64,000 nt of DNA, from contig WGMR01000005.1 of the NCBI GenBank assembly GCA_016124955.1, forward strand, positions 62,001-126,000. The letters are read 5' to 3'. This DNA is from Alphaproteobacteria bacterium. Its GTDB lineage: Bacteria; Pseudomonadota; Alphaproteobacteria; UBA9219; RFNS01. The position numbers were made by a program, and so were the translations under genes. This document shows positions 23,017 to 60,437 of this stretch, in pieces (the stretch's first letter is position 1; every line of letters starts with the position of its first letter). The notes under the pieces were generated by a model that searched no databases, had not been told where the DNA came from, and saw nothing but the letters and a program-made list of their open reading frames with translations.

Positions 23017-25584
23017 ATGCTGGATATGAAGCCGCAACTGCAAAAACAGCCTTCGGTGCAGGAATTATCGCTTGCGGCCGCGACCGCCGTGCCATCGATA
23101 CGCTGGATCACGCGCGGCCTGCTCGCCTGCGGCATCCTTGCGGTCGTGGGTATCTTTACCGTCTTTCTTTCGCTGGTCGCGCCCGAGATAACCTCGCCGC
23201 TGGTCTATGGGCCGCTGTTCGTGCTTGCGGTGACATCGGCCGGCAGCGCGCTATGGATTTTGATACAGGCGCGCAACCATGCGCAGCAGGAAATTTTGCT
23301 GCGTGAAGCGTTCCATAGCGTGCTGATCCCGCAGGCAATCACGGACGAATCCGGTAACGCCGTTCTGGCCAATCGCGCCTTCATCGGCTGGATCGATATC
23401 AGCGACCAGAACGCGGAAGATGCGCTGGCGGGCCGCTTCGCCGACAACCAGGCGGCGGCGGCGGAATTCAAGCAATTGCAAAAAACCGCCCGCGCCGGCC
23501 AGATGGCGGTGGCCGAATTGCCGGTGATGCGCAACGGCAGGATGGTGGAATGGCGCCGCATCACCGTGCGCCAGCTGACCGGCTGGCCCAATTACCTGCA
23601 ATGGCGGCTTGAAGATGTGAGCGAGCGCCGCCGTATGGAACGCGCGATGCGCGAAGAGCAAGCCAAGCTGGTGGACTTCATGGCCAACGCGCCTGTTGGT
23701 ATCTATTCGGTCGATCAGCACGGGCGTTTCCGTTTCGTCAACCGCACGCTGGCGGAATGGCTTGGCAGTTCGGCGGAAGAATTGATCAGTAATAATGTGC
23801 GGCTGCACGATGTGATCAACGCGCCATCGAAGGAAATCGCGCCGCACGCGATTGTGCCCGGCATGGAAGGCGAGCGCCGCGGCGAAGTCGTGATGACCAG
23901 CAAGGACGGACGCTTGTTGCCGGTCGCGATCACGCAAACCGTGGTGACGAACGACGACGGCAAAATGCTGCGTACCCGCTCGATCGTCCGCGATTTGACG
24001 CCGGAACGCGAATGGCAAGAAGCGCTGCTGCAATCGGAACAGCGTTTTCAGCGTTTGTTCGCGCAGGCGCCCATCGGCGTCGCGCTGGTGGATATGAATT
24101 TGAACGTGATGGAATGCAACCAGGCGCTTGTTAGCCTGCTGCGCCGCACGCGCGAGGCGCTGATCAATCTGCCGCTGACCGAACTGATCAGAAGCGATAG
24201 CCGTGATGCTGCGGAAACGCAGCTGCGCGACGTGCTGGGCGGCCGCGATTTCGTCAAGCCGCTTGAAGTGCATCTGATCGCCGACCGCGACGTGGCGGTG
24301 CTTATATATGTGAAACGCTTCGATGCCCCGGCGCTGACCCGGCAGGGTACCGACCCGAACGTGACCGAAGGCGGCTTGGTGCTTTATTTCATCGACACGA
24401 CCGAGCAAAAACGGCTCGAGGTGCAGTTCGCGCAATCGCAGAAAATGCAGGCCATCGGCCAGCTCGCGGGGGGTATCGCGCACGATTTCAACAATCTGCT
24501 GACCGCCATGATCGGCTTCTGCGATCTTTTGCTGCAGCGGCACAAGCCGGGCGACCAGAGCTTCGCCGACATCATGCAGATCAAACAGAACGGCAGCCGC
24601 GCCGCCAATCTTGTGCGGCAATTGCTGGCCTTTTCGCGCCAGCAAACCTTGCAGCCCAAGGTGCTTAGTATGGTCGATGTGCTGGCCGAGCTTTCCAACC
24701 TGCTGCGCCGCCTGATCGGCCCCACCATCAGGCTGGAGATGGTTCACGGCCGCGATCTCGCGCCCGTGAAGGTCGATCAGATGCAGCTCGAACAGGTGAT
24801 CGTCAATCTTGTGGTCAATGCGCGCGACGCGATGCCGCAGGGCGGCGCCATCACGGTAAAAACCAGCAACCACAAGCAGGCTGTGGGGATTCTGCGCAGG
24901 CAGGACGAAATGCCGGCGGGGCAGTATGTGTTGATCGAAGTGAGCGATACCGGCACCGGCATCCCCAAGGAAATCCAGCAACGTATCTTCGAACCGTTTT
25001 TTTCGACCAAGGAAGTCGGCCACGGCACCGGGCTCGGGCTTTCGACCGTGTACGGCATTGTCCGCCAGACCGGCGGCTTTATTAATCTTGAGAGCGAGGT
25101 TGGCCGCGGCACCAAATTCATGGTTTACCTGCCCGCGCATATTCGTGACGGCAAGGCGGTTGAGGAAGCGGCGGTCGAGGAAGCGCCCGAAAAGGCCGCC
25201 GACCTTACGGGTTCCGGCAACATTTTGCTGGTCGAGGACGAAGATGCGGTGCGCATTTTCTCCTCTCGTGCGCTGCGCAACAAGGGTTACAACGTGATTG
25301 AGGCGCGTAACGGCGAGGAAGCGCTCGCGGTGATCGAGAAGGAAGGCAAAACGCTTGAGCTCATGATCAGCGACGTCGTTATGCCGCAGATGGACGGGCC
25401 GACGTTGTATAGCAAGATCAAGGACGATTGGCCGAAGCTGAAGGTGATCTTCATTTCCGGTTATGCGGAAGATAAATTCCGCGACCAGCTAAAGGCAGGC
25501 GAGGTGGTTTACTTTCTCGGCAAGCCCTTTACGCTCAAGCAGCTGGCCAGCAAGGTGAAGGATGTGCTCGATGGCAACGAATAA
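23017..25584 (+). CDS. cckA: cell-cycle hybrid histidine kinase CckA
   Basis: This 855-residue membrane hybrid kinase has two transmembrane segments (about 32-56 and 62-84), PAS regions (about 95-200, 215-330 and 340-460), a dimerisation domain with phospho-acceptor His489 in GGIAHDFNNLLTAMIG, a HATPase domain (VNARDAMPQGG, GTGIP, GTGLGLSTVYG), and a C-terminal receiver with Asp786 in ISDVVMPQMDGPT. The receiver's KVIFISGYAEDKF matches CckA closely. In the class, CckA sends phosphate through ChpT to CtrA and CpdR and controls cell cycle and motility. It starts 3 bases after flhB, so it may be expressed with flagellar genes. Neither chpT nor ctrA is in the window. Confidence 0.9.
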   Translation: MLDMKPQLQKQPSVQELSLAAATAVPSIRWITRGLLACGILAVVGIFTVFLSLVAPEITSPLVYGPLFVLAVTSAGSALWILIQARNHAQQEILLREAFHSVLIPQAITDESGNAVLANRAFIGWIDISDQNAEDALAGRFADNQAAAAEFKQLQKTARAGQMAVAELPVMRNGRMVEWRRITVRQLTGWPNYLQWRLEDVSERRRMERAMREEQAKLVDFMANAPVGIYSVDQHGRFRFVNRTLAEWLGSSAEELISNNVRLHDVINAPSKEIAPHAIVPGMEGERRGEVVMTSKDGRLLPVAITQTVVTNDDGKMLRTRSIVRDLTPEREWQEALLQSEQRFQRLFAQAPIGVALVDMNLNVMECNQALVSLLRRTREALINLPLTELIRSDSRDAAETQLRDVLGGRDFVKPLEVHLIADRDVAVLIYVKRFDAPALTRQGTDPNVTEGGLVLYFIDTTEQKRLEVQFAQSQKMQAIGQLAGGIAHDFNNLLTAMIGFCDLLLQRHKPGDQSFADIMQIKQNGSRAANLVRQLLAFSRQQTLQPKVLSMVDVLAELSNLLRRLIGPTIRLEMVHGRDLAPVKVDQMQLEQVIVNLVVNARDAMPQGGAITVKTSNHKQAVGILRRQDEMPAGQYVLIEVSDTGTGIPKEIQQRIFEPFFSTKEVGHGTGLGLSTVYGIVRQTGGFINLESEVGRGTKFMVYLPAHIRDGKAVEEAAVEEAPEKAADLTGSGNILLVEDEDAVRIFSSRALRNKGYNVIEARNGEEALAVIEKEGKTLELMISDVVMPQMDGPTLYSKIKDDWPKLKVIFISGYAEDKFRDQLKAGEVVYFLGKPFTLKQLASKVKDVLDGNE

Positions 25585-47392: not shown

Positions 47393-48037
47393 ATGAATAT
47401 CATTCTGCTTGGGCCACCCGGCGCAGGGAAGGGGACGCAGGCAAAACGATTGGAAGACCACAAGCACATGACCCAGATAGCGACCGGGGATATGTTGCGG
47501 TCTTCGATCAAGCGCAGCGAGCCGCTCGGCCTTGAAGCCAAAGCGATCATGGATGCCGGGAAGCTTGTTCCGGACGATCTGATGATCCGCATGATCAACC
47601 AGCGCATCAGCCGCCCCGATTGCGCCCATGGTTTTATCCTCGATGGGTTTCCGCGCACCGTGCCGCAGGCCGAGGCGCTCGATAAGATGCTGGAAGAAAA
47701 GAAAATGAAGCTCGATGCCGTGATCGAGCTGAAGGTTGACGAAGCCGCCTTGATCGAGCGGGTGCAGGGCCGTATCGCGTGTGCGCAGTGCGGCGCCGGC
47801 TACCACGAAAAATTCAACCTGCCAGAGCAGGAAGGCGTTTGCGACAAGTGCGGCGGCACCGAATTTACCCACCGCGCCGACGATAACGCTGAAACCCTGA
47901 AGATCCGCTTGGCCACCTACCGTGACCAGACCGCCCCGATTCTTCCCTATTATAAGGGCAAGGGCATCCTTCACACCGTCAACGGCATGGCCCCCATGGC
48001 CGAAGTCGAGGCGGCTATTGAGAAGGCAATGGGTTAG
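47393..48037 (+). CDS. adk: adenylate kinase, zinc-lid type
   Basis: This 214-residue nucleotide kinase equilibrates ATP, ADP and AMP. P-loop GPPGAGKGT spans residues 7-15, and DGFPRT is in the middle. The LID carries four cysteines (130, 133, 150, 153) in a zinc-binding arrangement, as in Gram-positive and some Gram-negative enzymes. The ATG at 47393 is the family start. It is the last gene of the spc group here; normally rpsM would follow, but a signalling module does. Confidence 0.96.
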   Translation: MNIILLGPPGAGKGTQAKRLEDHKHMTQIATGDMLRSSIKRSEPLGLEAKAIMDAGKLVPDDLMIRMINQRISRPDCAHGFILDGFPRTVPQAEALDKMLEEKKMKLDAVIELKVDEAALIERVQGRIACAQCGAGYHEKFNLPEQEGVCDKCGGTEFTHRADDNAETLKIRLATYRDQTAPILPYYKGKGILHTVNGMAPMAEVEAAIEKAMG

Positions 48038-48101: not shown

Positions 48102-48115
48102 TTAACCATCCTTAA
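48102..48115 (+). promoter_or_regulatory. candidate CtrA site upstream of the signalling triad
   Basis: TTAACCATCCTTAA lies 114 bases before the response regulator start. It contains TTAACCAT, a known CtrA half-site form, and a second TTAA, but the spacer is 6 rather than the usual 7 bases. The remaining 191-base gap between adk and the regulator is A+T richer than its surroundings and shows no clear terminator. Confidence 0.4.
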
Positions 48116-48228
48116 CCTTGCGGCAAGGATTTTGTGCGAATTTTACTAGCCTAGGATTCTGCTAATTTAGGTGTTCCCGCCTTGTTCAACCTTGCCGGAC
48201 GAAGGTGCCCAGCACCAGGAGAGTATGC

Positions 48229-48666
48229 GTGAGCCAGCTAGCGAACCTCAAGATTCTGATCGCCGATGACCATTTCCTGATCCGGCAGTTCGTCCGCAAT
48301 ACGTTGCAGGATGCCAAGGTCACGAATGTGCATACGGCGGGTGACGGCAACGAAGCGATTGAGCAGATCCAGAAAGCGCGCGACGTCAACCAGCCCTTCG
48401 ACATCGTTTTTCTTGATTGGAATATGCCGACCATATCCGGCCTTGAGGTGCTCAGCTATTTCCGCGCCAAGCCCGAATTTTCCGATACCGCCTTCGTGAT
48501 GCTGACGGCGGAATCCGAACAGCAGAACATCATGAAGGCGATCAAGGCCGGGGCGACATCTTACATTATCAAGCCTGTGTCGCCGGCCGATCTCAGCAAG
48601 AAGCTGTTCGAGATCAATGAATGGATTAAACGCAAGCGCGCGAACATGCAGCAGATGGCCCGCTGA
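48229..48666 (+). CDS. single-domain response regulator (CheY-like)
   Basis: This 145-residue receiver has no output domain. Conserved residues are Asp13/Asp14 (LIADDH), phospho-acceptor Asp63 (FLDWNMP), Thr93 (MLTAES) and Lys115 (IIKPVSP). The C-terminal end is a basic helix, EWIKRKRANMQQMAR. I chose the GTG at 48229, since AGGAGAG lies at ideal distance; the frame is open to 48205. CheY itself binds FliM, but single receivers also act as phosphate carriers, and the partner here is unknown. It is the first gene of a three-gene module with a CheX phosphatase and a CheA-like kinase, 40 bases upstream of the second gene. Confidence 0.88.
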   Translation: MSQLANLKILIADDHFLIRQFVRNTLQDAKVTNVHTAGDGNEAIEQIQKARDVNQPFDIVFLDWNMPTISGLEVLSYFRAKPEFSDTAFVMLTAESEQQNIMKAIKAGATSYIIKPVSPADLSKKLFEINEWIKRKRANMQQMAR

Positions 48667-48705
48667 AACCGGTTCGCGCCTGCCTGCTAACCTAGGGAGA
48701 TATGA

Positions 48706-49224
48706 ATGACCACCGCGCAGAACCTGCAGCTTGCCCTGGATGAACAGCTTTCCGGCGAAATCAGCAAGGCTGTATGCACGGCAATGCGCGATACGTTCGA
48801 CGCCGATGTTAAGCCGGGTAAATACGAAATCGGCGAAGGGCCTGTCGCGCTGATCGGCGACGTTTCCGGCATCATCGGCATGGTGCAGAACGATCTGGAA
48901 GGCACGCTGACGCTTTGCCTGACCTACGATACCATGCGGGATATTTTGCCCAAGGTGGTGGGCTCCGAAATTGCCATCACCCATGAAATGGCGCTCGATG
49001 CGGTGGGCGAGATCACCAACATGATCTTTGGCACCATCAAGACCAGCCTGAACGGTCGCGGCTTCGCGCTCAAGCTCGGTATCCCGAGCGTCATTACCGG
49101 GCGCGGGCATTTTCTCAGCCATTTTCACCGCGGGCGCTACATGATCGTGCCCTTCTATCTGGGCGGGCAACTGTTCCAGGTGCATATAGCGATCCACAAC
49201 ATGCGTAGCGCAAACCAGCACTAG
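48706..49224 (+). CDS. cheX: CheX/CheC-type chemotaxis phosphatase
   Basis: This 172-residue protein belongs to the CheC/CheX/FliY family that removes phosphate from CheY-P. The catalytic signature D/S-x3-E-x2-N-x22-P is exact: Asp98, Glu102, Asn105 and Pro127 in LDAVGEITNMI and LGIPSVI. One active-site copy is present, as in CheX; CheC has two. AGGGAG precedes the start. It sits between the response regulator and the kinase, and the receiver encoded upstream is the natural substrate. Confidence 0.85.
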   Translation: MTTAQNLQLALDEQLSGEISKAVCTAMRDTFDADVKPGKYEIGEGPVALIGDVSGIIGMVQNDLEGTLTLCLTYDTMRDILPKVVGSEIAITHEMALDAVGEITNMIFGTIKTSLNGRGFALKLGIPSVITGRGHFLSHFHRGRYMIVPFYLGGQLFQVHIAIHNMRSANQH

Positions 49225-49245
49225 CCGCAGGAGGCAGGAAAGCCC

Positions 49246-50994
49246 ATGCCTGAGGCACCCAACCAGGAACCCGCGCAACACGAAGGCGGCGATATCGGCA
49301 AGGCGGTGCTGACCGACGCGGTCAAGCAGTTCGACCTTGTGCATACGACGCTTCTGGGCATGGTCGGTATCGTGCTGCTGTTGTACGGCGCGGCGCTTTT
49401 GCCTGTGTTTGGCTATCAACCGGTCGAATCCGCTGCCGCGGCGGTGATTATGGGGCTTGCCGCCGCGATCGGTATCGCCGGGCTGTATATTATGAATTTC
49501 CGCGTGCACAAGCACGTGACCGAGCAAGCGCAGCTGACCGAGGTGCTGGTCAACAGCCTTGGGCAGGCGTTCCTGACCTTCGATAACCAGGGCGTGTGCG
49601 GCAAAGTTTATTCGCAGGTCTGTATGGATTTGCTGGAAGGCTCGCCTTCCGGCCGGCCTATCCACCAGGTGCTGCGGGTCCCGGAGGGCAATAAAGAAGA
49701 TTTCTATAGCTGGATCGAAGTGCTGTTTGATGCGACCCACGCGCTCGGGTTTGATGACGCCGTTAAATTTCTGCCCGACAGCTATCCGCACAGCGCGGGC
49801 AAGAATGTGAACCTGTTATACCGGCCGATCCGCGACAGGGCGGAACGGCTTGTGAGCGTGGTCGTTATCGCGACCGATCGAAGTGAAGAAGTGGCGGCGC
49901 AGGAACGTGCCCGCAAGCAGCAGCAATTCGCTTCCATGATCTGCAAGATTTTCCAGGAACGGAACCAGTTCATCACCACGATCGCGCATATCCGGGAATT
50001 CATGGCCCAGATTACCAAACCCGGCCTTACGCGCGATAATCTCTCCGACGTTTTGCGCCAGCTTCACACAATGAAAGGCGCCGTGCGCCATTTTAACCTG
50101 ATCGAATTCGGCGACACGGTGCATGATCTTGAGGATCGTGTTCGCAGCGACGGCGCGGAAACGGATGAAAAGATGCGCGCCGTGCTCAAGGAAGTGCACG
50201 CCCGCATTGAAAAAGAACTGCAGGATGTTTTGTCGCAGGTGAAGGATATCATCAGCGACGACGAAGAGCACCGCGGCAACGTCTATCAGATCAACGAAGA
50301 TGCGATATATGATTTTGCGCACCACCTTCAGCAAAGCGGGGTGGACCACAAAATTGTCCGTGCCTACCTTGATCGTATTGCGACCGTGCCGGTGCGGGAA
50401 TGTTTCAAAGGTTTCGACCGCGAGTTGCATGAACTGGCGCAACAGATCGAAAAGCAGATCAAGCCGCTGATGTTCACCGGCAGCAACCCCAAAATACTCG
50501 CGCAGCCGCTGAGCGAGCTTCTGTTCTCGCTTACGCATATTTGCCGCAACATCATTGATCACGGTATCGAAGCGCCGGTAACCCGGCTTGCGCGCGGCAA
50601 GGATGCTGCCGGGACCGTGGTTGTGCACACCGATGTCATGACGGATGTCGATGGCAAACGGTGGCTGCACATTTCGATCAGCGATGACGGGGCGGGTATA
50701 GACCCTTCGCGCGTGCGGCAAAAGCTTTCGACCATGGACCCGGAAGGCGATTGGCGCTTCGAAGACGACAGTGCCGTGATCCAGCGCATCTTCAGCTGGG
50801 GGTTATCGACAAGCGAGGCGGTCAGCGATTTTTCTGGCCGTGGTGTTGGTATGGAGGTCGTGGAGCGGGAGGTTAAGCTGCTTGGGGGTACGATCAAGGT
50901 CAGTTCCGAGATATATCAGGGCGCGCATTTTGATATCCGGGTGCCCTACATCATTGACCTTCCAGAAGTTGAGGCGAGCCGAAAGGCCGTCTAA
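49246..50994 (+). CDS. membrane-bound CheA-like histidine kinase without CheW domain
   Basis: This is a 582-residue protein. Two transmembrane segments (about 33-53 and 62-85) have a very short periplasmic turn. A PAS-like sensor region (about 95-212) follows, then an HPt-type domain with His274 in QLHTMKGAVRHF. The ATPase domain is of CheA class: N-box HICRNIIDHGIE (431-442), ISDDGAGID, and FSGRGVGMEVVEREVKLLGG (quoted as FSGRGVGMEVV). It ends at 582 with no CheW-binding domain, so it should not join classical receptor arrays. A coiled linker (about 305-345) lies between HPt and the rest. It is 21 bases after cheX. Which signal it reads is unknown. Confidence 0.85.
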   Translation: MPEAPNQEPAQHEGGDIGKAVLTDAVKQFDLVHTTLLGMVGIVLLLYGAALLPVFGYQPVESAAAAVIMGLAAAIGIAGLYIMNFRVHKHVTEQAQLTEVLVNSLGQAFLTFDNQGVCGKVYSQVCMDLLEGSPSGRPIHQVLRVPEGNKEDFYSWIEVLFDATHALGFDDAVKFLPDSYPHSAGKNVNLLYRPIRDRAERLVSVVVIATDRSEEVAAQERARKQQQFASMICKIFQERNQFITTIAHIREFMAQITKPGLTRDNLSDVLRQLHTMKGAVRHFNLIEFGDTVHDLEDRVRSDGAETDEKMRAVLKEVHARIEKELQDVLSQVKDIISDDEEHRGNVYQINEDAIYDFAHHLQQSGVDHKIVRAYLDRIATVPVRECFKGFDRELHELAQQIEKQIKPLMFTGSNPKILAQPLSELLFSLTHICRNIIDHGIEAPVTRLARGKDAAGTVVVHTDVMTDVDGKRWLHISISDDGAGIDPSRVRQKLSTMDPEGDWRFEDDSAVIQRIFSWGLSTSEAVSDFSGRGVGMEVVEREVKLLGGTIKVSSEIYQGAHFDIRVPYIIDLPEVEASRKAV

Positions 50995-51044: not shown

Positions 51045-51072
51045 TTGACTCAGTGGCGTCGATGACTATACT
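51045..51072 (+). promoter_or_regulatory. promoter of the rpsM-rpsK-rpoA-rplQ operon
   Basis: TTGACT (51045-51050), a 16-base spacer, then TATACT (51067-51072) is one of the best sigma-70-type matches in the window. It reads into rpsM, leaving a leader of about 145 bases. It is needed because the three-gene insertion separates the alpha operon from spc transcription. Confidence 0.75.
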
Positions 51073-51082
51073 GCGCGCTCTT

Positions 51083-51172
51083 GGCCCAAGCTGGATTGGG
51101 CCGGGTTCCTTTTTGCGTCTTTTAAAAGCAAAAAGCCACGCAGGTTTTCGAACCGGGGCGCGGTTTTTTTGC
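51083..51172 (+). promoter_or_regulatory. structured leader of the alpha operon (hairpins and terminator-like element)
   Basis: Three potential stems follow the promoter. The first is GGCCCAA-loop of 6-TTGGGCC (51083-51102). The second is TTTTTGC paired with GCAAAAA (about 51111-51134). The third, AACCG-GGGCG-CGGTT (51151-51165), runs into a stretch of T at 51166-51170, like a terminator. The element lies between promoter and rpsM, so attenuation or binding of a ribosomal protein such as S4 are both possible. Confidence 0.5.
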
Positions 51173-51225
51173 TTTTTTGGTCAAGACGATAAAGCGAACC
51201 CTTGGCAGATTAAAGGAGAAGGCGC

Positions 51226-51603
51226 GTGGCGCGTATCGCAGGTGTTAACATTCCGACTGGCAAGCGCGTTCTGATCGCGCTGCAGTACATTCACGGCATT
51301 GGTCAGAAAAACGCAAAAGACATTTGCACGGCGCTGAACATTGCGCCGGCAAAGCGCGTCAACGAACTCGCGGAAGCAGAGGTTCTGCAGATCCGCGAAT
51401 TCATCGACGGTCATTACCGCGTTGAGGGCGATCTGCGCCGCGAAGTTTCGATGAACATCAAGCGCCTGATGGATCTGGCTTGCTACCGCGGGCTGCGCCA
51501 TCGCAAGGGGCTTCCTGTTCGCGGCCAGCGCACGCACACCAACGCCCGCACGCGCAAGGGCCCGGCCAAGCCGATTGCCGGCAAGAAAATGGCCACCAAG
51601 TAA
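51226..51603 (+). CDS. rpsM: 30S ribosomal protein S13
   Basis: This 125-residue head protein contacts the P-site tRNA. The start is GTG at 51226 ([15 protein letters not shown]) after [36 protein letters not shown] is the conserved C-terminal part (quoted as [18 protein letters not shown]). It begins the alpha operon, transcribed from its own promoter in this genome. Confidence 0.96.
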
Positions 51604-54045: not shown

Positions 54046-55452
54046 ATGACCAGACTTGCAGCAATCTTCATCGCTCTGCTCGGTTTCTTTGCCGCGCCCG
54101 CCTTGGCCCAAACGGTACCGCAAACGCGCGAGCAGGTTCAAATGACCTTTGCGCCGCTGGTGAAGCAAACCGCACCTGCGGTCGTTAACATTTTCGCCCG
54201 CAAGCTCGTGAAGCAGCGGACATTTTCCCCGTTTATGAACGACCCGCTGTTTCAGGAATTTTTCGGCGGCGGCATGCCGGGCATGACGCGGGAGCGGATG
54301 GAAAATTCGCTCGGTTCCGGCGTGATCGTGCGGGCCGATGGGCTTGTGGTCACCAACAACCATGTGATCAGCGGCGCCGATGAAATTCATGTCGTACTTT
54401 CCGACCGCCGCGAGTTTGAAGCGACGCTGGTGACGACCGACGAAAAGACCGATCTTGCCGTGCTTCGGCTCAAGACCAATGGCGAACAGATGCCGTTCCT
54501 TGAATTGCGCGATTCCGACAGCGTCGAGGTCGGCGATATGGTTCTGGCAATTGGAAACCCCTTCGGTGTCGGCCAAACGGTGACGGGCGGTATCATTTCC
54601 GCCGTTGCGCGCACGGGCCCGGCGGTGGACGATATGGGCTATTACATCCAGACCGATGCCGCGATCAATCCGGGCAATTCCGGCGGTGCGCTGGTATCGA
54701 CCGATGGCAGGATGGTGGGCATCAATTCAGCCATTTATTCGCGCACCGGCGGCAATATCGGGATCGGCTTTGCCATCCCTGCCAACATGGTGAGGGTTGT
54801 GATTGATGCCGTGGTAAGCGGCAAGAAAAACGTTGTGCGGCCGTGGCTCGGCGTTACGGGGCAGGAAGTGACATCCGACATCGCCCGTTCGCTCGGCCTC
54901 GTGAAACCTTCGGGCGTTCTGGTGAACGAGATCAATGCCATCAGCCCCGCCGGCAAGGCCGGGCTTAAGGTTGGCGATGTGATCATGGCGGTCAACGGGC
55001 GCGAGGTAGAAGGGCCGGAAGCGCTGGATTTCCGCATCGGCACTATGCAGGTCGGCGGGCTCGCGATCTTTCGCATCAAGCGGGCGGATAGCACCAAGGA
55101 TATTAATTTCACGCTGATCGCGCCGCCGGAAACACAGCCGCGCGACACAACCCGGCTTGCGGGCACCGGCCCGCTGGCGGGCGCCGTCGTGGTCAACATA
55201 TCGCCTGCGGTGGTGGCGGAATACGGCCTGCGCGACATGGATGAGAGCGAAAAAGGTGTCGTGGTTGTCGATGTGAAGGAAGGCAGCCCCGCCGCCGGCT
55301 TCGGTTTGCGCGACGGGGATATTCTTCTTTACGTGAACAAGACTGTGATCGGCAGCGTGGACGATGTGGTTGAGGCCACCCGAAGCGCCGCCGAAGGCTG
55401 GCGCATCCGGCTGCGGCGCGGCCGGCAGATCATGAACGTTTTCGTGCGCTGA
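54046..55452 (+). CDS. degP: DegP/HtrA-type periplasmic serine protease
   Basis: This 468-residue protease/chaperone has signal peptide (MTRLAAIFIALLGFFAAPALA, the first 21 residues). The trypsin-like domain has His106 (VTNNHVIS), Asp136 (KTDLAVLRL) and Ser212 (NPGNSGGAL). Two PDZ domains follow (about 270-365 and 380-465). It degrades misfolded envelope proteins. MgsA/RarA starts 1 base after its stop, although the functions are unrelated. Which of the DegP, DegQ or MucD subtypes it is cannot be fixed by eye. Confidence 0.92.
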   Translation: MTRLAAIFIALLGFFAAPALAQTVPQTREQVQMTFAPLVKQTAPAVVNIFARKLVKQRTFSPFMNDPLFQEFFGGGMPGMTRERMENSLGSGVIVRADGLVVTNNHVISGADEIHVVLSDRREFEATLVTTDEKTDLAVLRLKTNGEQMPFLELRDSDSVEVGDMVLAIGNPFGVGQTVTGGIISAVARTGPAVDDMGYYIQTDAAINPGNSGGALVSTDGRMVGINSAIYSRTGGNIGIGFAIPANMVRVVIDAVVSGKKNVVRPWLGVTGQEVTSDIARSLGLVKPSGVLVNEINAISPAGKAGLKVGDVIMAVNGREVEGPEALDFRIGTMQVGGLAIFRIKRADSTKDINFTLIAPPETQPRDTTRLAGTGPLAGAVVVNISPAVVAEYGLRDMDESEKGVVVVDVKEGSPAAGFGLRDGDILLYVNKTVIGSVDDVVEATRSAAEGWRIRLRRGRQIMNVFVR

Positions 55453-55453
55453 C

Positions 55454-56767
55454 ATGGCAAAACAGGCGGCAACGACGGGGCAAGGGCTTTTCAGTTCCGC
55501 CGCGCCGCGCCCGCTGCCCGACAGGTTGCGCCCGCAGAAACTGGCCGAGGTTGTGGGCCAAGGGCACATTCTGGGCCCTGGGGCGCAGCTCGGGCGCATG
55601 CTGGCGGCTGGCCGGCTGGCTTCAATCATCTTTTGGGGGCCGCCCGGCTGCGGCAAAACCACGATAGCGCGCCTGCTGGCGCAGGAAACCGCCCTGTATT
55701 TTGAACCCGTGTCCGCCGTGGCTTCCGGGGTTGCGGATTTGCGCAAGATATTCGATGCCGCTTCGGGCCGCCGCATGGGCGGGCAGGGAACGCTCCTGTT
55801 CATTGATGAAATTCACCGCTTCAACCGCGCGCAGCAAGATGTGCTTTTGCCTTATGTCGAAGATGGCACGGTCACGCTCGTTGGAGCCACGACCGAAAAC
55901 CCGTCGTTCGAGCTAAACGGCGCGTTGCTTTCCCGCTGCCAGGTGTTGGTGCTGAACCGGCTCGATGACGGCGCGGCCGAAATGCTCGTACAGCGGGCAG
56001 AGCAATCCGTCGGCCATGCCCTGCCGCTGGATACCGCGGCGCGGCAGGCTTTGAAGGCCATGGCGGACGGAGACGGGCGTTATTTATTGACCATGTGCGA
56101 AGAGCTGGCTTCTTTGCCCGCCGACAAAACGCTCGATACCGCGGCGCTAGCCGTGTTCGTGCAAAAACGTATGCCGCTTTACGACAAGGCGCAGGAAGGC
56201 CACTACAATCTGATCAGCGCCTTGCATAAATCGTTGCGCGGCTCCGATTGCGATGCGGCGCTTTATTGGCTTGCGCGCATGCTGGGGGGCGGCGAAGACC
56301 CGTGCTATATCGCAAGGCGGCTGACCCGTTTCGCCAACGAGGATATCGGCCTCGCGGACCCGCAGGCGATTGTGCAGACGCTGGCGGCATGGGAAACCTA
56401 TGAACGGCTGGGCAGCCCGGAAGGCGAACTTGCGCTGGCGCAGGCTGTCGTTTACCTCGCAACCGCGCCGAAATCGAACAGTCTTTATATGGCTTTGGGG
56501 GAGGCAAAGGCGGCGGCGGACAGGTACGGCTCGCTCATGCCACCCAAACACATACTCAATGCGCCGACTGCCATGATGAAGGATATGGGGTACGGCAAAG
56601 ACTATGCCTATGACCATGATACGCCCGAAGGTTTTTCAGGCCAGAATTATTTCCCCGAAGGCATGCAGCGGCAGGAATTTTACCGCCCTGCCGAGCGCGG
56701 TTTCGAGCGCGAAGTCAGGCAACGGCTCGATTACTGGAACAAGTTGCGCGAACGCAAGGCGGACTAG
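55454..56767 (+). CDS. rarA: replication-associated recombination ATPase RarA (MgsA)
   Basis: This 437-residue AAA+ ATPase acts at stalled replication forks. Walker [10 protein letters not shown] is at residues 62-70, Walker [13 protein letters not shown] at about 114-125, sensor [12 protein letters not shown], and the C-terminal tetramerisation domain ends [10 protein letters not shown]-like (here [16 protein letters not shown]). [16 protein letters not shown] is also a family mark. Its stop overlaps that of the chemoreceptor tail to tail. Confidence 0.93.
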
Positions 56768-58911
56768 CTGTTCCGGACCTTTGTCAGGAACTGGTCCATC
56801 TGCTGCTTCAGCATTTCCGATTGCTGCGACAATTCACGCGCCGCAGACAAAACCTCGTCTGATGCCGCGCGCGCTTCGCCCGCGCCCTGCGAAACTGCCG
56901 TGACGCTGCTGGAAACCTCGGCGGTGCCGGATGAAACCTGCTGCGTGCTGGCGGCGATTTCCCGCGTCGCGGCCGATTGCTCCTCGACCGCCGCCGCGAT
57001 GCCGCTGGCGACCTGATTGATGCGCTCGATGATTTTGCCGATGTTGCGGATGGCGTCAGCCGCCTGCTGGGTCGAGCCCTGCATGGCTTCGATGCGGCCC
57101 GATATTTCCTCGGTCGCTTTGCCGGTCTGGTTCGCGAGGTTCTTGACCTCGGACGCGACCACGGCAAAGCCTTTGCCTGCTTCACCCGCGCGGGCGGCTT
57201 CGATCGTGGCGTTCAGTGCCAGCAAATTGGTTTGTTCGGCGATATCCTTGATCAGGTTAACGACCTCGCCGATCTGGGCGGAAGATTCGACAAGCGTAGA
57301 AACGGTTGCGTCCGTCTGCTTGACCTGATTGACGGCATCGACGGTCATTTTGTTCGAATCCGCGACCTGGCGGCTGATTTCGTTGATCGATGAGGTGAGC
57401 TCTTCGGCCGAGCTCGCGACCGTCTGGATGCTGACGGAAGTTTCCTCGGTTGCCGAAGCGGCGGTCGTGGTTTGGTGGCTGGTTTGTTCCGCGATCGCGC
57501 TCAGGCTTTCGGCATTCGCCTGCAGTTCGGTCGAAGCGGCAGCGACAGCGCCGATGATCTGGCCCACACTGGCCTCGAAGCTGGAGGCAAGGTCTTCGAG
57601 CGCGCGTTTCTTTTCCTGTTTGGCCTGTTCTTCCATGCGGGTTTGTGATTCTTTTAGCTTTTTGGCCTCCAGCCCGTTTTCCTTGAAAACCTGTACCGAA
57701 CTGGCCATTTCGCCGATCTCGTCATGCCGTTCGACGCCGGGAATTTCGATATCGTACTTTTCCTTGGCGAGATCGCGCATGGTCGCGGTCATTTGCACGA
57801 TGGGTTGGGCAACTTTTCTGGCCGAAAAGAAAGAAATAAATGCAATAACCACGAGCGCGGCAAGCGTCGCCAATATGGCAAACAGTTTCATGTGGTTGAT
57901 GGGTTCCATAACCTCGGACTTATCGATTTCAGCCAGAATAGCCCAGCGGACGCCGTGGAAATCAATCGGCCCGTATGCCGATACCACAGGTATGCCGCGA
58001 TAATCATCGACAATGCCAAAACCTTCCTTGCCCTGCAGCGCAAGATCCACCGTTTCGCCGGTCACCTTGGTTTTCAGGATTGTCGACTCTTTGGAAAATC
58101 TGGAGTCGCTGCGCATGAAATAATCGCCGCCGACGATGTAAGTTTCGCCGGATTCGCCCATGCCGGCGGCCACCTGCATGACAGCGTTGATGCGCTTGAT
58201 TGGCATCTGGAAGGCGAGTACGCCGGCCAGCGTACCGTTATCGTTCAGGATCGGTTGTGCGATAAAGCTCGCGGGGGCGTCGTAACTGGGGGCATAGGGT
58301 TTGAAATCGAAGAATGCCTGATAATCTTCCTTCGGGTTGTCTCGTGCGGCGCGGAATGCGTTGCCGAGATCGGTATCCTTCCATTCGCCGGAATTCAGAT
58401 TGGTGGCAAAATCGAGTTCCTTGAAGACGGTATAGACAAGGTCGCCGTTTGGCGCGAACAGGAAGATATCATAGTAATCGCGCTGGCGCAGAAAATGCCG
58501 GAACCATGGGTGGTATTTTTTGTGCAGCTGGCTGTAGTAGGAGCCATCGGAGGCGTAATTCAGCTCTTCCTTCGATCCGGTCGGATGAGGGTTGTTGGTG
58601 ATGTAGAGCGCGTGCAGGCGCTGTGTCTGGTTGTAGCCCAGTTCGTTCCATGCCGCCGTGTAATCCAGAAGTGCCTGACGCACATATTCGTTGTGGGATA
58701 GGGATGAAAGGTCCTGTTCGATCGAACCCAGATAGCTGCCGAGCGCGCTGGCGCGCGAAGCCTGAAGCGCGGCGAGCTTTTCTTCCGCCGCTTCCATGGC
58801 ATCGCTTGAAGCTTTTGTGAGCGCGATGGCGCCTGTGACAATTGACGAAAGCACGGCCAGGGTTGTGATCAGGATCGTGAGCTTTTGTGTCAGCTTGAGT
58901 TTATCGAGCAT
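56764..58911 (-). CDS. methyl-accepting chemotaxis protein with periplasmic Cache domain
   Basis: This 715-residue receptor starts at 58911, where AAGGAC is well placed. The first transmembrane segment is about residues 8-30. A large periplasmic sensor (about 40-350) of the dCache type has [18 protein letters not shown] and [18 protein letters not shown]2 (about 345-370) and a HAMP domain come next, then a signalling domain whose hairpin tip reads [23 protein letters not shown] (quoted as [18 protein letters not shown]). No C-terminal CheR-tether pentapeptide is seen. The ligand cannot be told. It is alone, without che genes next to it. Confidence 0.92.

Positions 58912-60437
<1,526 letters not shown>

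Follow-up and report, generated by a model that had tools for sequence, protein, structure and literature searches.

The three genes that lie between adk and rpsM in this alphaproteobacterial DNA probably encode an autonomous and insulated CheA-type membrane phosphorelay, in which the kinase has a built-in sensor and CheX resets the signal, and which would be sited at the spc-alpha seam by chance. In the mechanism that we propose, the membrane-anchored kinase would sense via a transmembrane hairpin and a PAS domain, and its CheA-type ATPase would phosphorylate His274 on the kinase's own HPt domain. The CheY-like protein of the adjoining gene would then receive the phosphoryl group from His274 on its Asp63 and, once phosphorylated, would act by binding a protein target, and CheX would hydrolyse the phosphoryl group on the triad CheY. 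Autophosphorylation, transfer and hydrolysis, the last with this CheY as the substrate of CheX, are steps that we infer from sequence. The triad would carry its own transcription signal and merely happen to sit at the seam. The features of the window, i.e. the whole 64,000-nucleotide stretch of DNA that was analysed, are the following.

47393-48037, + strand: adk, upstream neighbour, assigned from the open reading frame and order-wide synteny
48112-48136, + strand: 25-bp conserved sequence TTAACCWTNCRGCAANNNNTTTNTG, candidate promoter/operator for the triad, 0 mismatches
48229-48666, + strand: cheY-like single-domain receiver, GTG start, phosphoacceptor predicted at Asp63
48706-49224, + strand: cheX phosphatase, ExxN motif E102/N105
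49246-50994, + strand: membrane PAS-HPt-CheA-type ATPase kinase, 582 aa, without a CheW domain
49342-49500, + strand: two transmembrane helices with a very short loop, aa 33-85, predicted from sequence and AlphaFold2
49558-49881, + strand: predicted PAS-fold sensor region, aa 105-212 (AlphaFold2 and Foldseek)
49960-50253, + strand: HPt domain, aa 239-336 (Pfam Hpt, 5.3e-8)
50065-50067, + strand: phospho-histidine His274 of the HPt domain, invariant
50380-50955, + strand: CheA P4-type ATPase, aa 379-570 (phmmer and hhalign)
51045-51072, + strand: sigma-70-type promoter TTGACT-16-TATACT before rpsM
51164-51258, + strand: RNA resembling the alpha-operon S4 leader (RF00140, Alpha_RBS), below the gathering score
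51226-51603, + strand: rpsM, downstream neighbour

A preliminary description of this DNA had placed a CheY/CheX/kinase set between adk and rpsM, and our analysis confirmed that all the open reading frames are real and lie on the + strand. The description had also regarded the adk-rpsM junction as opened here, in agreement with the comparison of this interval over the alphaproteobacteria: the triad occurs in none of the 27 loci outside the order that have both genes, and in other alphaproteobacteria adk is followed by rpsM at a distance of 97-934 bp. The three genes travel together, as had been proposed, since all 28 loci carrying the complete set show the order CheY-CheX-kinase on one strand, with median gaps of 16.5 and 20.5 bp. 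An assembly artefact at the junction was ruled out, because the adk-triad-rpsM arrangement recurs in independently assembled relatives.

The kinase and its two partners

The kinase was matched by Pfam HATPase_c with an E value of 1.3e-15, and phmmer against the PDB retrieved solved CheA structures (E 2.6e-27) over the ATPase part only. Alignment with CheA by hhalign returned a probability of 99.9, the aligned columns (379-575) corresponding to the P4 ATPase only. The protein thus has both the P4 ATPase and an HPt (P1) domain with a phospho-histidine, as in CheA and as the preliminary description had read it. Residues H274, N435, D480, D481, G482, G484, G533 and G535 were invariant over 25 kinase orthologs, and so were T275 and K277 of the HPt domain. 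The absence of a CheW-binding (P5) domain was upheld in Pfam, in the phmmer search of the PDB and in the hhalign comparison with CheA; as the reading frame ends at aa 582 and neither Pfam nor hhalign returned a match, a CheW domain hidden elsewhere in the gene was discarded. A P3 dimerisation domain was not detected by Pfam or hhalign, P3 being poorly conserved in CheA generally (PMC10782961).

The full-length AlphaFold2 model of the kinase (mean pLDDT 80, pTM only 0.44) shows two long N-terminal helices (17-55 and 63-104), after which come a domain of mixed structure, the helical bundle of the HPt and then the ATPase. When region 92-242 was modelled alone (pLDDT 83), Foldseek retrieved solved PAS domains, and the two transmembrane segments and the PAS-like region of the preliminary description are in line with the predicted structures. 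The cassette encodes neither CheW nor a receptor, the features of a canonical array, as checked on its open reading frames and by Pfam. With a sensor fused to a CheA core that lacks CheW, no separate receptor or CheW would therefore be needed.

The CheY-like protein was recognised by Pfam Response_reg (E 8.2e-28), its top NCBIfam match was CheY, with a score below that model's cut-off, and its closest solved relatives are CheY proteins. It consists of a single receiver domain in which D13, D14, D63, T93 and K115 are present and are invariant in 27 sequences, consistent with the earlier assignment of Asp63 as the putative phosphoacceptor. A GTG start was found in 26 of the 27 cheY loci with a start; the remaining gene was called from an upstream ATG, and a V occupies the equivalent position two codons further on. 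CheX scored 60.6 bits with Pfam CheX (cut-off 27, E 1.6e-16) and matched solved CheX structures with an E value of 3e-18. It thus belongs to the CheX fold family and carries the ExxN motif, E102 and N105 being kept in 28 sequences.

Inheritance, position and control signals

CheX was found in 29 of the 33 genomes of the order, including all 21 good ones, and the kinase gave high-score matches in relatives of the same order. In the other 63 genomes of the class that were sampled no kinase ortholog was found, the searches returning CheA-type or other partial matches or nothing, and neither the CheX search of viral contigs nor a search of genome contigs with the kinase alone gave matches. The order, which is related to the predatory bacterium Micavibrio, is inferred to be Micavibrionales from one relative named Micavibrio sp. 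(L045); most of the relatives compared are draft assemblies, and the named ones other than L045 are MAGs. A horizontal insert private to the source genome was ruled out by the order-wide occurrence of the triad, and the presence of the triad in every good genome suggests a central role in the order. The triad kinases formed one group in the ATPase tree (support 86/84, a moderate value that falls short of the tool's star threshold), in which family f2 was recovered and the f3 members fell in one group, while the f1 members did not form one clade; the tree of these sequences can be reconciled with inheritance inside the order. In one genome (G009, 99% complete) the triad genes and FliM are present and CheW gave no match. 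Its kinase gene (L052, 10526-12284) is read in two frames that overlap, which may point to a frameshift, and the gene may therefore be broken there.

Position was surveyed in the loci with 10-kb flanks. The triad lies between adk and rpsM with nothing in between in the window and in L035, L037-L040, L042, L043 and L055, whereas one gene separates adk from cheY in L056 and a gap of about 1.5 kb does so in L058. The rpsM neighbour alone is retained in five loci (L044, L047, L048, L050 and L054) and the adk neighbour alone in two (L045 and L049). Neither gene occurs within roughly 7-10 kb per side in L046 and L057, and both are absent nearby in L052, where an ftsZ gene adjoins the triad (Pfam). 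The triads of L051 and L053, which are on short contigs, and that of L057 lie near an SMC-type gene (Pfam for L053 and L057). As the adk-triad-rpsM arrangement spans several genera of families f1, f2 and f3, it is probably ancestral, and has probably often been lost while the triad stayed whole. Since the neighbours have been lost in several members whose triad is intact, the position is not maintained although the triad is.

A conserved 25-bp element, TTAACCNTNCRGCAANNNNTTTNTG, ends 52-178 bp 5' of cheY in most members. It was found in 24 of the 33 genomes of the order when up to 2 mismatches were allowed, and all matches with 0-1 mismatches lie just 5' of the triad cheY, with the exception of a second copy in G003; its placement was judged from the position next to triad genes. 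The second G003 copy is exact and lies at a contig end (C18, 94-118), and may be an assembly duplicate. The scan of the source genome, which was nearly complete and covered overlapping stretches amounting to 1.92 Mb as well as the window, returned a single perfect copy, before the triad cheY, the next best having 3 mismatches. The element is the putative promoter of the triad, and whatever binds to it need not be an activator. A signal shared by a regulon was discarded, as the source genome has no second close copy. As for rpsM, the promoter score reached at least 10 of 12 in 13 of 21 loci of the order and in 19 of 28 others, and the Alpha_RBS match had an E value of 1.6e-4 and 31 bits, against a gathering score of 38.

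These data bear on the remark in the preliminary description that the triad is placed where it could be co-expressed with the ribosome genes, and on the further reading that this is the purpose of the position and couples signalling to growth. The genes of this region of the window are indeed all on one strand, and the arrangement is shared by several genera of the three families and is thus probably ancestral. However, the triad has its upstream element even where adk is gone, rpsM is served by a promoter of its own and has an S4-leader match, and triads such as those of L046 and L057 have neither neighbour in their flanks, nor do those by smc or ftsZ. Co-expression is therefore not supported as the purpose of the position, and we consider it very unlikely. 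What stands of the earlier reading is that receptor and kinase are probably combined in one protein, linked with its own receiver and phosphatase; the ribosomal purpose is not supported, nor is the unit alone of its kind.

Related cassettes and the output of the relay

Six divergent kinases of the order adjoin receivers and mostly also CheX. The paralogous cassettes comprise CheY, CheX, FIST and kinase in L091, CheX, FIST and kinase in L090, and CheY, CheX and kinase in L092 and L094, the CheX match of L094 being below the cut-off; in L090 and L091 the FIST gene stands between cheX and the kinase. The divergent kinase of L095 has CheY and CheX nearby and that of L093 CheY only. Outside the class, L137 holds CheX, CheY and a PAS-HPt-ATPase kinase whose Hpt match is weak (E 0.0057); in the ATPase tree it is on a long branch next to CheA, and its place is therefore unsure. 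Given the divergent paralogous cassettes and the one distant cassette, the triad belongs to a wider type. In four further loci (L096-L099) a FIST gene lies next to a hybrid kinase that matches the sensor of the triad kinase in its N-terminal region, the FIST domain of L096 being confirmed by Pfam.

NosP proteins, which are sensors of the FIST type, regulate a kinase partner (PMC12570481). The match between the sensor region of the triad kinase and the input region of the FIST-linked hybrid kinases, and the FIST genes within the cassettes L090 and L091, would fit a pathway like NosP-NosK that responds to nitric oxide or haem. However, no FIST gene, and hence no FIST partner elsewhere in the source genome, was found there with a profile able to retrieve the six FIST loci from which it had been built, and the transmembrane hairpin of the triad kinase is unmatched in L090 and L091, whose hits start at profile position 91-93. 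A FIST gene is encoded with the kinase in L090 and L091 and not in the triad, and NosK uses a DHp domain (PMC12570481), whereas the triad kinase has an HPt and a CheA ATPase. A pathway of this type is thus improbable here, and in the absence of a FIST gene from its genome the triad kinase presumably senses by itself.

The genome has further signalling genes apart from the triad, namely a cheA-cheW-cheY cluster (L100), a CheY of the motor type accompanied by a CheZ gene (L168) and a single-domain receiver beside a PleD-like gene (L169), the last being probably DivK. Given the motor-type CheY/CheZ and the cheA-cheW-cheY cluster, the CheY/CheX pair of the triad is an additional one, and its CheY may also receive phosphoryl groups from the canonical CheA. 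As the likeliest target we tentatively consider the flagellar motor, with phosphorylated CheY binding the motor switch and CheX balancing this extra input. With 82 bits, the triad CheY ranks second among the receivers compared in closeness to Salmonella CheY, after the CheY of the flagellar cluster (139 bits) and ahead of that of the che cluster (67 bits), and it has retained the DWNMP motif; FliM was found in 20 of the 21 good genomes of the order. Still, the genome already has a dedicated motor-type CheY with CheZ, and G010, a fragmented assembly, has the triad and no FliM match, so that this target is possible rather than established.

An action on cell-cycle or polarity proteins, as for DivK, appears unlikely. 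Of the three proteins, CheY shows the strongest conservation (its mean column identity is 78%, and those of the other two are 64% and 57%), and the element starts with TTAACC, which we take to resemble a CtrA half-site. The probable DivK is nonetheless the separate receiver beside the PleD-like gene, and the element stands alone in the genome, with no other close copy, which is not the pattern of a shared CtrA regulon. We also regard as quite unlikely the wider reading in which these kinases are a distinct CheA-derived class of receptor-kinases, with their own CheY/CheX and a single-use element, that is retained throughout an order of Micavibrio-like Alphaproteobacteria and governs a decision at the centre of this lifestyle, such as searching versus attached growth.

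Known systems and other genes of the window

The insulated phosphorelay proposed here shares the P4 ATPase, HPt, CheY and CheX motifs with the CheA-CheY-CheX chemotaxis pathways of Thermotoga and spirochaetes. It differs from them in that it has no CheW domain, detected P3 or cassette-encoded receptor and fuses a sensor and transmembrane helices to the kinase; in a survey of CheA proteins, P1, P3, P4 and P5 were core to all, and CheW was present in every CheA collected (PMC10782961). The likeness to NosP-NosK lies in the sensor region shared with the FIST-linked hybrid kinases of the order and in the FIST genes beside the kinases of two paralogous cassettes. In the Che3 system of Rhodospirillum centenum, chemotaxis-like kinases likewise signal to a single-domain CheY outside chemotaxis, but these are the hybrid kinases CheA3 and CheS3, and word-search counts of the paper's text give none for CheX (PMC3868531). 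HmrABCX of Caulobacter is also an alphaproteobacterial phosphorelay and is tied to motile-sessile switching; it differs in having a hybrid kinase and separate HPt proteins, and its text makes no mention of CheX (PMC11481889). No description of such a cassette was found in the open-access literature, subscription journals being outside the scope of the search. A CheA-type ATPase with its own sensor, without CheW and with a private CheY/CheX pair would represent chemotaxis chemistry without receptor arrays, and its three genes could lend themselves to reconstitution in vitro.

Other genes of the window were also noted. On the - strand, a 751-aa open reading frame (56764-59019) carries the MCP signalling motif LALNA..EAA and is one of three MCP-like frames recognised by motif in the genome. 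On the + strand, 54046-55452 encodes an HtrA/DegP-like protease with a trypsin-like domain and PDZ domains, and an 855-aa frame (23017-25584), with a weak kinase-profile match and a receiver near its end, is probably a hybrid kinase.
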